In this document: piece by piece, positions 11,173 through 63,791 of the stretch | How positions within the stretch are numbered: the stretch's first letter is position 1 | Layout of the letters: each line of letters opens with the position of its first letter | NCBI GenBank assembly: GCA_937918935.1 | Contig: CAKZSI010000015.1 | Span: 62,001-126,000, forward strand | Reading direction: 5' to 3' | Length of the DNA stretch: 64,000 nucleotides | Origin: an uncultured Chloroflexales bacterium | Lineage (GTDB): Bacteria > Chloroflexota > Chloroflexia > Chloroflexales > Chloroflexaceae | Notes under the pieces: model-generated | The model's input: only the letters and a program-made list of their open reading frames with translations | What the model was told of the DNA's origin: nothing | Database searches by the model: none | Translations under genes and position numbers: made by a program

Positions 11173-11189
11173 GGGAAACCAGGTTTCCC
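11173..11189. repeat. GGGAAACCAGGTTTCCC perfect palindrome
   Basis: A 17-bp perfect copy of the dispersed palindrome, in the 147-bp gap between two glycosyltransferase genes. It is followed by the usual CACACCCCTGC tail. Confidence 0.8.
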
Positions 11190-15799: not shown

Positions 15800-16135
15800 C
15801 AGGGGCACGGGGAAACCCGGTTTCCCCGTTTCCCGCCAGGCAGCGTGCAGGCCGCCAGCGCCCCGTTGAGGCGAATAATCCTTGCTTTCGCGCTAAACGG
15901 CAGGGGCGTAGAGAAACCCGGAGTCTCCGTTTCCCGCCAGGCGGCAGGAGGGGCGAAAGGTTTTTTTGCCCCCGACCAGTGGGGGCCATAGGGAAAACCC
16001 GGTTTCCCCGTTTCCCACCGGGCGGCAGGAGGGGCGAAAGGTTTTTCGCCCCGACCGGCGGGGGCGTGGAGAAACCTGGGGTCTCCGTTTCCCACCAGGC
16101 ATGGGAACGTAGCTCCTTCCCCTCCCTCTCCACCG
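15800..16135. repeat. Tandem array of composite intergenic repeats
   Basis: The 519-bp gap 15668-16186 has no gene. From 15800 it holds four units of about 80-100 bp. Each has a GRGAAACC...GGTTTCC palindrome, a GTTTCCCRCC box, GGCGGCAGGAGGGG, and a GGGGCGAAAGGTTTTTCGCCCC hairpin. Related GGGGCGAAAGGCTTTTCGCCCC is also seen at about 22460. The units diverge in sequence, which suggests an old tandem amplification. Confidence 0.7.
15809..15827. repeat. GGGGAAACCCGGTTTCCCC perfect palindrome
   Basis: A full 19-bp perfect copy of the dispersed palindromic repeat, the first of four related units in the gap between the ROK gene and the ABC ATPase. Confidence 0.85.
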
Positions 16136-36781: not shown

Positions 36782-36800
36782 GGGGAAACCCGGTTTCCCC
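36782..36800. repeat. GGGGAAACCCGGTTTCCCC perfect palindrome
   Basis: Full copy of the dispersed palindrome between minE and era. A second copy with a variant centre (GGGGAAATCCCGTTTCCCC) lies 48 bp away at 36830-36848, ending 2 bp before the minE stop codon. Confidence 0.85.
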
Positions 36801-41373: not shown

Positions 41374-41390
41374 GGGAAACCAGGTTTCCC
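41374..41390. repeat. GGGAAACCAGGTTTCCC perfect palindrome
   Basis: Copy of the dispersed palindrome in the 176-bp gap between mreD and the PBP2 gene, followed by a GGGGCGCAGCCCTTC companion hairpin near 41417. Confidence 0.8.
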
Positions 41391-48652: not shown

Positions 48653-48671
48653 GGGGAAACCTGGTTTCCCC
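48653..48671. repeat. GGGGAAACCTGGTTTCCCC perfect palindrome
   Basis: Full 19-bp perfect copy in the transcribed leader of rpmH, ending 29 bp before the start codon and so probably folding in the mRNA. Confidence 0.85.
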
Positions 48672-51529: not shown

Positions 51530-52441
51530 CTGAACGCCCTGGAACCAGTCCGGTACCTTGCGATCGGGCATATGACCCGCGATTGCCTGCCCGAAGGCAG
51601 CTACACGCCCGGCGGGACGGCGCTGTACGCCGCGGCGACGGTCGCCCGCCTCGGCGCACGCGCGGCAGTGCTCACCGCCGCCAATCCCGCCCATGTTCCC
51701 GCGACGCTGCCCCGCGTCACCACTGCTGGAACGGCCAGCACCGTCACTACCACCTTCGAGAATCGCTACGAATCCCGCGGGCGGCGCCAGTGGCTGCATG
51801 CCCTCGCGCCGCCGATACGCCTGGAGCATTTGCCCGCGGCCTGGCGCGCGGCTCCGGTGGTGCACCTCGCGCCCGTCGCCGGTGAGGTCGATCTGGCCTG
51901 GGCAGCGGCATTTCCGCACGCCCTGGTGGGGGTGACGCCGCAGGGATGGTTGCGCGCCTGGGACACACCCCTGCCGGCCCCCGTGCGCCCGGCGCCCTGG
52001 CGGCCCGCGGCTGCCCTGCTGCAACACGTGGACCTGATCGTCCTCAGCATTGAGGACGTTGGCGGCGACGAGGCCCTGGTCAGCCACTACGCCAGGCTCT
52101 GCCCGCTGGTAGCGGTGACACGGGGCGCGGCAGGGGCGACGCTCTATGTGGCGGGTGAACCACGATCCGTGCCGCCCTTCCCTGCGCTGGAGCGCGACCC
52201 GACCGGAGCGGGCGACGTCTTCGCCGCCGCGCTGCTACTGCGCCTGTGGGAAACCGGCAATGCCCTGGCCGCGGCAACCTATGCCAGCGCGGCGGCCGCC
52301 TGTGCCGTCGAAGGCCCCGGCCTCGTCTCGCTGCCCGATCGCATCGCCGTGGAGCGGCGCCTGCTGCACGGCCCTAGCGCTCCAGCCGATAGGGCACGCT
52401 GGTCACCACCGTACCCTTCTGATACATCAGCGCCGTCTTGA
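51530..52441 (+). CDS. PfkB-family carbohydrate kinase, probable CTG start
   Basis: A 303-residue ribokinase-fold kinase. SYTPGGTALYAAATVARLGA (about 25-44) is the substrate-binding Gly motif. The C-terminal DPTGAGDVFAAALLLRLWE (about 224) holds the catalytic Asp and anion hole. The first ATG (51572) would remove the first beta strand (RYLAIGHMTRD). The frame upstream to the stop at 51524 holds only CTG codons (51530, 51539), so a CTG start at 51530 is proposed. No clear ribosome site is seen. The last 18 residues overlap the convergent kimA-like gene by 68 bp. Substrate unknown. Confidence 0.78.
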   Translation: MNALEPVRYLAIGHMTRDCLPEGSYTPGGTALYAAATVARLGARAAVLTAANPAHVPATLPRVTTAGTASTVTTTFENRYESRGRRQWLHALAPPIRLEHLPAAWRAAPVVHLAPVAGEVDLAWAAAFPHALVGVTPQGWLRAWDTPLPAPVRPAPWRPAAALLQHVDLIVLSIEDVGGDEALVSHYARLCPLVAVTRGAAGATLYVAGEPRSVPPFPALERDPTGAGDVFAAALLLRLWETGNALAAATYASAAAACAVEGPGLVSLPDRIAVERRLLHGPSAPADRARWSPPYPSDTSAPS

Positions 52442-54227
52442 TCAACCAGCCGGTCTGGTTGTGCAGCAGGTGCTCCCACCAGCGGGCAGGCACAAACTCC
52501 GGCAGGATCACCGTAACCATGCCGTCCTTGTAGTGCGACTGCACCTCGGCAATGTAGCTGCGCAGCGGTCTGAGCAAGGAGCGGAAGGGCGACTCCAGCA
52601 CCACCAGGGGCACATCGCAGCCCCACTCGCGCCAGCGCACCCGCAGCCGCTCAGTCTGCTCGGGATCGAGGTTGACGTACACGGCGGTTACATTGTCGGG
52701 GGCGATGGAGCGGGCGTACTGTAGCGCGGGAAGCACGCCCTTGTGGATGCCGCTGACCAGGATGATCGCCGTGTGGCGGCGCAGATCGGGGGGCTTGACC
52801 GCCGTGGAAAGGGAGAGTTGCTCGGCCACGCGCAGGTAATGCTGGTGAATGGCCTGAAAGATCAGCACGAGCGTGGGGATCAGGGTCAGCACGATCCAGG
52901 CGCCGTGGGTGAACTTGGTGATCGCCAGGATCACCAGGACAATCGCCGTGAGCAGCGTGCCCACCGTGCTGATCAGCGCCCCCCGTTCCCAACCCGGCTC
53001 GCGCATCCGTATCTGGCGCCGCACCATGCCCGCCTGCGACAGCGTGAAGGAGATGAACACCCCCACCGCATAGAGCGGCAGCATAGCGATCTCATTGGCC
53101 TGGAAGATCACCACCAGCAGCGCCGAGAAGAAGCCCAGGGCCAGAATGCCGTTCGAAAACACCAGGCGGTCGCCCCGTGAGGCGAACTGCCGGGGCATGA
53201 ACCGGTCGCGCGAGAGGAATGACGCCAGGCGCGGAAAGTCGGCGAAGGCGGTGTTGGCCGCCAGCACCAGGATGAGCGCCGTTGCGACCTGGATGCCAAA
53301 ATAGGCCGGGCCGGTTCCAACCACGGTGCGCGCAATCTGCGAGACGACCGTCTCGTGGGTGATCTCGTTGGGCACGGCCTGGTGCAGATGCGCCAGCCAG
53401 GTGATCCCCAGGAACATGGAGATCAGCAGCGTGGCCATGAGCGTCAGGGTAGCGGCGGCATTTTTTGCCTCCGGCGGCTTGAAGGCCTGCACCCCGTCGC
53501 TAATTGCCTCGATGCCGGTAAGCGCCGTACAGCCGGCGGCGAAGGCGCGCAGGATCAGCCAGAGACTCAGGGCCTCACCGACCTCGGGAACCGGCGGCGG
53601 AACGGGGTGAACCACCGGTGAGACGCCGTAGATTACGTCTTTGATGAGGGCGAACGCAATCAGGCCGAGGATGCTGACGACGAAGGTGTAGGTGGGCACG
53701 GCAAAGATTGCCCCGCTCTCCTTAACGCCCCGCAGGTTCGCCAGCGTCACCAGAGCAATACACAGCAGGGCGATCTCCACGGCGGCGTGCTTGAGCCCCG
53801 GGTAGCCCCAGGTGCTGGCCAGCGAGGTGATTGCCGCCACCCCGGCAGAGATACTGACCGCAACCGTCAACACATAGTCAATCAGCAGCGCCGCCGCGGC
53901 GATCAGGCCGGCCGTATCGCCCAGGTTGTCACGGCTGACGATATAGCCGCCCCCACCCCGCGGGTAGGCATGAATGGTCTGCCGGTACGAAAAGGCGACA
54001 ATCGCCAGCAGGGCGGCAATCGCTCCGCCGATCGGCAGCGCCAATCCCAGAGCATGTGTGCCCGCAAGGACAAGTACGGTTAAAATAGCCTCGGTGGCAT
54101 AGGCCACGGACGAGAGCGCGTCAGAAGAAAATACGGCCAGCGCCGTGGTGCGCGTGAGCCGTTCTTGATGCTGTTGTTCAGTGGCAATGGGCTTGCCGAC
54201 CAGAAAACGTTTGATCTGCGATGCCAT
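52374..54227 (-). CDS. APC-superfamily potassium importer, KimA-like
   Basis: A 617-residue protein with about 12 membrane helices (about 30-440) and a C-terminal cytosolic domain of about 160 residues with a universal-stress-like Rossmann pattern (HTAIILVSGIHKGVLPALQY). The N-terminus MASQIKRFLVGKPIATEQQH, then TTALAVFSSDALSSVAYATE, matches KimA/YdaO-type K+ importers, which take up potassium with protons and are inhibited by c-di-AMP in Firmicutes. An in-frame ATG at 54353 would add 42 residues encoded by the leader; I prefer ATG 54227. A leader attenuator precedes it. Confidence 0.86.
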   Translation of the reverse strand: MASQIKRFLVGKPIATEQQHQERLTRTTALAVFSSDALSSVAYATEAILTVLVLAGTHALGLALPIGGAIAALLAIVAFSYRQTIHAYPRGGGGYIVSRDNLGDTAGLIAAAALLIDYVLTVAVSISAGVAAITSLASTWGYPGLKHAAVEIALLCIALVTLANLRGVKESGAIFAVPTYTFVVSILGLIAFALIKDVIYGVSPVVHPVPPPVPEVGEALSLWLILRAFAAGCTALTGIEAISDGVQAFKPPEAKNAAATLTLMATLLISMFLGITWLAHLHQAVPNEITHETVVSQIARTVVGTGPAYFGIQVATALILVLAANTAFADFPRLASFLSRDRFMPRQFASRGDRLVFSNGILALGFFSALLVVIFQANEIAMLPLYAVGVFISFTLSQAGMVRRQIRMREPGWERGALISTVGTLLTAIVLVILAITKFTHGAWIVLTLIPTLVLIFQAIHQHYLRVAEQLSLSTAVKPPDLRRHTAIILVSGIHKGVLPALQYARSIAPDNVTAVYVNLDPEQTERLRVRWREWGCDVPLVVLESPFRSLLRPLRSYIAEVQSHYKDGMVTVILPEFVPARWWEHLLHNQTGWLIKTALMYQKGTVVTSVPYRLER

Positions 54228-54282
54228 ACGGGTCAGCCCTTCAAGCTGGTCACCGGCAGCCGGTCGTGATAGGAGCGCAAAG

Positions 54283-54320
54283 AAAAAAACCTGACTACCG
54301 TGGCAGTCAGGTTCTACCTG
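54283..54320 (-). promoter_or_regulatory. Leader attenuator of the kimA-like gene
   Basis: On the minus strand, AACCTGACT (54305-54313) pairs with AGTCAGGTT (54288-54296), followed by seven U: a complete intrinsic terminator 56 nt before the start codon. Immediately before it, CAGGT-AGA-ACCTG (54320 down to 54308) forms a hairpin that uses the same ACCTG, so the two stems exclude each other. A GGACC...GGTCC stem lies further 5'. Confidence 0.7.
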
Positions 54321-54377
54321 TCGGACCGTGCGGGGGTAATGGTCCTTGTCCATTCGTCATAAGCCTAGTGTGCCAGC

Positions 54378-54386
54378 ACTATAGCA
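54378..54386 (-). promoter_or_regulatory. Extended -10 promoter of the kimA-like gene
   Basis: On the minus strand TG-C-TATAGT, with TTGACG 20 bp upstream of TATAGT. It predicts a leader of about 145 nt that contains the attenuator. Confidence 0.5.
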
Positions 54387-54464: not shown

Positions 54465-54483
54465 GGGAAAACCTGGTTTTCCC
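54465..54483. repeat. GGGAAAACCTGGTTTTCCC perfect palindrome
   Basis: Perfect 19-bp variant of the dispersed palindrome, between the divergent kimA-like and ABC ATPase genes. A third, degenerate copy is at about 54565-54583, and a GAGGGTGCAGACCTCTGCACCTC hairpin lies between them. Confidence 0.8.
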
Positions 54484-54683
54484 TCGCCCCTGCCTGCTGG
54501 CAGGGTCTGGGAGGGTGCAGACCTCTGCACCTCCCCGCAACGGGCCGCTCGACAAAACCAGGGTAGGGAAACCTGGTCTCCCCTCGCCGCTTCCTGCCGG
54601 GAGGGCTGCGGCCGCAGCGCAGCGGTATCTGGTGTAGAATATCACAAGTCCCGGTTTACTTGAGTACAGAACTGACACGAACC

Positions 54684-55635: not shown

Positions 55636-55654
55636 GGGGAAACCAGCTTTCCCC
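55636..55654. repeat. GGGGAAACCAGCTTTCCCC palindromic repeat copy
   Basis: Near-perfect copy (centre CCAGC) between the ABC ATPase and its permease. If the genes form one operon, the hairpin is in their mRNA. Confidence 0.75.
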
Positions 55655-56646: not shown

Positions 56647-56665
56647 GGGGAAACCTGGTTTCCCC
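56647..56665. repeat. GGGGAAACCTGGTTTCCCC perfect palindrome
   Basis: Full 19-bp copy of the dispersed palindrome between the permease and the sirtuin gene, followed by a GAGGGCGGCGCCCTC companion hairpin at about 56709-56723. Confidence 0.85.
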
Positions 56666-63423: not shown

Positions 63424-63791
63424 TGGTTTCCCTGCCCGGCACGTTGAGGGAGCGTTGGGAGGAGGTCGGAGGGCTGCGCCTTCCGCGATCGATTGATTCC
63501 GCCTGCGGCGGGCACACGCCCTGACGAAGACAGAACGGATCTACCGCCGCGGGCGGCAAGGAAACTGCGGGGAGGCTATGCATCACCGAACCCTTCCAAC
63601 GGTAATGTAGATCAGGGTATACTGGAGGGACAGCAGCCTTCCCAGACCCTCTTGATCAGTCCGGGGCACAGGGAAACCCGGTTTACCCGCGTGCAACCCG
63701 AGGGTTGCGCTACGCTTGATCTCCCGGCAGGCCGGGGCACAGGGAAACCTGGTTTCCCCATCTTGAAACCGACATCGAGGAGCAACGGCAC
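63424..63791. other. Intergenic region with palindromic repeats and candidate ettA promoter
   Basis: The 368-bp gap has no supported gene. It holds an imperfect GGGAAACCCGGTTTACCC copy (about 63671-63689), a perfect GGGAAACCTGGTTTCCC copy (63742-63758), a GGAGGGCTGCGCCTTCC hairpin near 63463, and a plus-strand TATACT (63618-63623) that could be the -10 for ettA. Confidence 0.6.
63742..63758. repeat. GGGAAACCTGGTTTCCC perfect palindrome
   Basis: Perfect copy of the dispersed palindrome about 34 bp before the ettA start, so within its leader. Confidence 0.85.

Follow-up and report, generated by a model that had tools for sequence, protein, structure and literature searches.

The kimA gene in the window (the whole 64,000-nucleotide stretch of DNA analysed, from an uncultured Chloroflexales bacterium) is preceded by a leader that is probably a transcription attenuator, in which a conserved bipartite motif would be the recognition site of a regulator that prevents formation of an intrinsic terminator. 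Attenuation itself is well supported. The motif, the predicted terminator, the overlap of the two and their specificity for kimA were shown by comparison with related leaders; for the effector and the sign of regulation we infer candidate answers from the same sequences. This suggests that an RNA switch not described before, rather than the c-di-AMP riboswitch, may control potassium uptake. Chloroflexales have a c-di-AMP synthase and a KimA with a c-di-AMP pocket, yet no ydaO riboswitch was seen ahead of kimA, and a compact, strictly conserved motif confined to kimA offers a direct handle on the sensing of K+ status. Because the motif is restricted to one gene, its effector should be findable.

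The kimA gene and its leader

The features of the locus, all on the minus strand, are as follows:

52374..54227 (−): kimA orthologue, a K+/H+ symporter of 617 aa (phmmer against B. subtilis KimA, E 1e-152)
54283..54289 (−): U7 tract (T7 in the DNA), about 56 nt before the ATG at 54227
54286..54315 (−): intrinsic terminator hairpin AGAACCTGACTGC/GTAGTCAGGTTTT, 13 pairs counting G-U, loop of 4
54302..54312 (−): block 2 of the motif, decayed, ACCTGACTGCC (canonical GCCGACTGCCG), also the terminator 5′ arm; GACTGC at 54308-54303 invariant in 23/23 aligned leaders
54313..54323 (−): block 1 of the motif, decayed, CGACAGGTAGA (canonical CGACAGCCGAC); ACAG at 54321-54318 invariant in 23/23 aligned leaders
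54308..54320 (−): hairpin CAGGT-AGA-ACCTG of the original prediction, present and able to fold in the growing RNA
54307..54360 (−): 17-codon frame MTNGQGPLPPHGPTGRT, probably not a gene
54323..54345 (−): 5-bp hairpin GGACC...GGTCC directly 5′ of the motif, kept in the related loci L002 and L003 and not shared by other genera
54378..54386 (−): predicted extended −10 element TGCTATAGT, unchanged in L002 and L003
54404..54409 (−): predicted −35 element TTGACG of the kimA promoter, with a 20-nt spacer here

The KimA-like importer of the original prediction is a true KimA orthologue. A phmmer search of the PDB matched only B. subtilis KimA (6s3k, 8b70, 8b71; E 1e-152), and Asp36, Tyr43, Thr230, Tyr377, Arg337, His579, Asn580 and Gln581 are kept, with Ser582 replaced by Thr. 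By its similarity, its K+ ligands and most of its c-di-AMP contacts (ligands and contacts as listed in PMC10284832), the protein belongs to the KUP family of K+/H+ symporters. An in-frame N-terminal extension to 54353 was ruled out: the open frame spans 660 aa in the window and 639 aa in relatives.

Transcription of kimA is expected to start near 54372. Most related leaders carry TTGAC-N16-20-TGCTATRRT about 60–110 nt 5′ of block 1, and since this predicted promoter lies upstream of the motif, the motif should be transcribed. The leader runs for about 145 nt between the promoter and the 617-codon gene. Its terminator stem contains the 9 perfect Watson–Crick pairs (AACCTGACT/AGTCAGGTT) that had been described together with the U7 tract and its 56-nt distance from the start codon. 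The local terminator piece folds at −19.0 kcal/mol, compared with −6.8 ± 2.2 kcal/mol for 1000 dinucleotide shuffles, none of which was as low, whereas folding of the complete 159-nt leader is not unusual (z −1.08); the folding signal is therefore local. A stable hairpin and U tract between promoter and start codon are found here and likewise in most relatives, and a conserved alternative element overlaps a terminator arm; both features are those of an intrinsic-terminator attenuator.

A bipartite motif conserved before kimA

A protein-similarity search of 82 genomes of the order and of the GTDB contig collection supplied the kimA orthologues. Their leaders were chosen by protein homology and not by the motif. 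The leaders of the closest orthologues contain CGACAGCCGAC-N5-8-GCCGACTGCCG, in most cases 6–22 nt before the U tract. Across kimA leaders from the same family and three sister-family genomes, 19 core positions are invariant and the flanks are unalignable. Among loci L001–L030, 19 have the canonical core letter for letter, 5 are near variants (L001, which is the window, L002, L003, L013 and L020) and 6 have no motif (L024, L025 and L027–L030). The core reaches 2.0 bits per position against about 0.2 bits in the flanks; the leaders in this tabulation were picked by exact pattern, so their invariance is partly by construction, and the kimA-anchored set gave much the same result.

An exact-pattern search found the motif in 24 of the 82 genomes, one copy each apart from two in G001, which holds several kimA copies; the reversed-pattern control gave 0. 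The single copy per genome is partly a product of searching for the exact pattern. In these genomes the motif lay beside and upstream of kimA wherever kimA was located. Three genomes of the sister family have the motif (G061, G063 and G070), which in G070 lies about 425 nt before a kimA copy rather than the usual distance of about 100 nt. About a dozen genera are spanned, with family placement resting on the named loci Chloroflexus, Oscillochloris and Chloroploca. An Rfam search of the window and its relatives returned nothing relevant, and the motif has no Rfam match. A covariance search of 400 Chloroflexota genomes gave convincing matches only within the order. Of the weaker matches outside it, those inspected lack the terminator and resemble coding or repeat DNA, and secondary matches in G033, G011 and G007 look like chance. 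No earlier description of the motif was found in the open-access papers searched.

In one register the two blocks can pair at 8 of 11 positions, the other three being invariant A.C mismatches. Of the paired cells in this register 97.8% do pair, and far fewer do so when the register is slid. Each block also contains CGACWGCCG, making the motif a direct repeat. Permutation gave p = 0.004 for the complementarity and p = 0.01 for the repeat. Because the blocks are invariant, pairing between them has no covariation, and a helix cannot be distinguished from a direct repeat. Unprotonated, the block 1–block 2 helix has a computed stability of no more than about −2 to −5 kcal/mol. The linker between the blocks is 5, 6, 7 or 8 nt long.

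The terminator is entangled with the motif

In nearly all leaders, the terminator 5′ arm engages the motif or its linker. In the Chloroflexus type this arm is the linker (ACGGAACGC...GCGTTCCGT), with block 2 in the loop, while in the other leaders it is block 2 (GCCGACT...AGTCGGC). Since the 5′ arm is made of the linker and/or block 2, terminator and motif compete.

The terminator stem also covaries. Nine both-sided changes were counted against 2.8 expected, and 0 of 500 shuffles scored as high, in a test on 18 leaders whose arms were joined by a constant AAAA spacer and whose lineages are not fully independent. Basal pairs swap in concert: the same positions hold A-U, G-C, U-A or G-U pairs. 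Native right arms match the left arm of their own leader better than arms exchanged between leaders do (0 of 20 000 permutations as good with all lineages), though the arm-swap test is weak with the Chloroflexus type and the window clade excluded (807 of 20 000). The concerted changes and the arm-swap result indicate that the terminator is under selection. RNAalifold found no structure on the whole alignment, in which the terminator arms are offset. Some terminators are poor: several Chloroflexus leaders have only GTCTTTC, the local stem of L004 is weak, and L015 has lost its U tract.

In L015 (L015/L037 compared with L016/L039), a perfect complement of the left arm stands where the terminator right arm and the U tract would be. 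The 18-bp palindrome so formed, GACAGCCGACAGCACGCC/GGCGTGCTGTCGGCTGTC, looks like the outcome of a templated strand-switch mutation.

The drifted copy of the window clade

In the window and its relatives at 95–97% protein identity, the motif has drifted to CGACAGGTAGA...ACCTGACTGCC, CGACAGGA...CCCGACTGC and CAACAGGT...CCCGACTGC. The sister genome L004 retains the canonical motif, as do 18 further loci of L001–L030, so the window copy is a derived or decaying version. It occurs once in its own genome, and a covariance model trained without the window clade did not detect it (7.3 bits). What the clade conserves is the terminator plus ACAG...GACTGC, and ACAG and C-GACTGC are all that stays the same across the 23 aligned leaders. 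Recognition in the window clade may have been weakened or changed by this drift.

The original prediction had the leader switch between the terminator and the hairpin CAGGT-AGA-ACCTG, which shares the terminator 5′ arm. In simulated folding of the growing RNA this hairpin is the first to form, and it gives way to the terminator as soon as the right arm has been made. The exact hairpin is specific to the window, relatives at 95–97% protein identity having CAGGA/ACCCG and CAGGT/ACCCG. Mutually exclusive structures are supported in another form than predicted: the conserved motif and the 5′ arm of the covarying terminator overlap, and CAGGT/ACCTG is not supported as the conserved antiterminator partner.

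Proposed mechanism

RNA polymerase would start near 54372 and make about 50 nt of non-conserved RNA, then block 1, the short linker and block 2, and last the right arm with the U tract. Without intervention, the linker and/or block 2 would pair with the right arm and transcription would stop near 54283. A regulator recognising both blocks would bar their entry into the terminator, and kimA would be transcribed; binding would thus antiterminate rather than terminate. A protein is the most likely type of regulator, failing which a ligand, an ion or pH. Our candidate is not a small molecule but a putative RNA-binding protein that would act as a dimer and respond to K+ or c-di-AMP status. A protein is favoured because conservation is limited to about 26 nt, made up of two near-identical halves.

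Direct sensing by the RNA is the main rival to an RNA-binding protein. The two blocks might form a minimal riboswitch or an ion or pH sensor, in which a ligand, K+ or protonation would stabilise the block helix and prevent the terminator; in the protonation version, A+.C wobble pairs would form at the three invariant A.C positions. Such a sensor is consistent with the strict sequence invariance, A.C positions included, with the far better pairing in one register than in slid ones, and with the activity of KimA at low external pH, reported in PMC10284832. However, some 26 nt is small for an aptamer, the computed helix is weak unless protonated, and two of the three A.C positions are lost in the window clade. 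This reading is somewhat unlikely. That the blocks represent a very small RNA sensor of a new class, sensing K+, pH or c-di-AMP directly, switching the kimA terminator and replacing ydaO in Chloroflexales, would be unlikely. The regulator might also be an ANTAR response-regulator protein that binds the leader and antiterminates, as in the nas, ami and eut leaders. ANTAR domains occur in 79 of the 82 genomes, and like the targets in the nasF, amiE and eut leaders, the motif has two related A-x-x-G sites, the second overlapping the terminator; the invariant ACAG and ACTG have the spacing of ANTAR loops, and hexaloop A..G.. hairpins of at least 4 pairs are in excess upstream (12 observed, 3.5 expected). 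ANTAR targets, however, have two hairpins with stems of at least 3 pairs and hexaloops A1..G4 (PMC3369931, PMC8164766), and the blocks do not provide them: they form no hexaloop hairpins with stems of at least 3 pairs, and the closing position of block 1 would be G.G. The upstream hairpins, moreover, are present in 11 of 25 leaders, are not independent, lie at varying distance and are absent from the window clade. We regard ANTAR control as improbable.

The motif could act instead as DNA, as the operator of a transcription factor just 3′ of the promoter, the terminator being incidental. Its blocks are quasi-palindromic and it always lies between promoter and gene, but the spacing of the halves varies by 3 bp, the motif lies at promoter distances that differ by tens of bp, and the overlap with a covarying terminator is tight. 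Linkers of 5–8 nt fit a rigid DNA operator poorly, and this explanation is quite improbable. The same linkers allow no common reading frame through both blocks, which bears on ribosome-mediated attenuation by a leader peptide, raised in the original prediction from MTNGQGPLPPHGPTGRT. The 17-codon frame does exist and does end within the terminator stem. Its start codon is lost in L003, L002 has another frame, and it is absent from relatives of 95–97% identity, so no short open frame that extends to the alternative stems was found to be conserved. A leader peptide is accordingly very improbable, and recognition of the transcribed motif by a regulator, probably a protein, is the reading retained.

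Comparison with known leaders and other kimA leaders

In Bacillus subtilis, kimA (ydaO) is preceded by the ydaO/c-di-AMP riboswitch (RF00379). Like that riboswitch, the leader described here attenuates transcription, as proposed, before the same gene and in the presence of a c-di-AMP synthase: all 56 good genomes of the order (56 of 56) encode a DAC domain. Unlike ydaO, it has a far smaller conserved core and no sequence or structural match, the RF00379 covariance model giving no hit to it, in line with the earlier suspicion that the leader is not ydaO. RF00379 was found in 4 of the 82 genomes, was not seen before kimA and has 0 copies in the window's genome. The copies found (L136–L140; two in G001 and one each in G060, G068 and G069) are on contigs other than the listed kimA contigs. 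The BglG/SacY RAT antiterminators are also similar in that a short conserved RNA element overlaps the terminator 5′ arm, and their ligand-controlled protein (CAT_RBD) may be counted as a likeness to the regulator proposed here. However, none of the 82 genomes of the order gave a CAT_RBD domain.

Genera g32 and g29 of the sister family have a different kimA leader hairpin, CGGTCGGCGYGTGGTGATCAGCGACGAT...GACCG plus a U tract; among six sequences (L174, L177–L181), two of its pairs are compensated. Like the window type, it is specific to kimA, ends in a U-tract terminator and occurs once per genome; unlike it, it is one long interrupted hairpin with the loop AGCGAC and no CGACWGCCG blocks. With this second leader, attenuation of kimA looks general in the order and executed by different RNAs. 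The lineage-specific turnover of kimA leaders (canonical, decayed and sister-family hairpin) suggests that the control point is kept while the executing RNA changes.

Other observations

A G037 kimA paralogue (L188) and a locus of family f3 (L186) have neither motif, yet have strong U-tract terminators. Hexaloop A..G.. hairpins closed by C-G lie 5′ of the motif in L111, L113, L115–L122, L126, L131 and L135 and resemble ANTAR P1. Within the window, the interspersed palindrome GGGAAACCNGGTTTCCC has 18 copies within 3 mismatches against 0.34 expected. Examples are at 11173-11189, 15810-15826, 36783-36799, 41374-41390 and 48654-48670, with further sites at 54466-54482, 54566-54582, 55637-55653, 56648-56664 and 63742-63758. 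The copies near 54–57 kb are intergenic and adjoin similar GC-rich sequence, and are possibly a repeat family.
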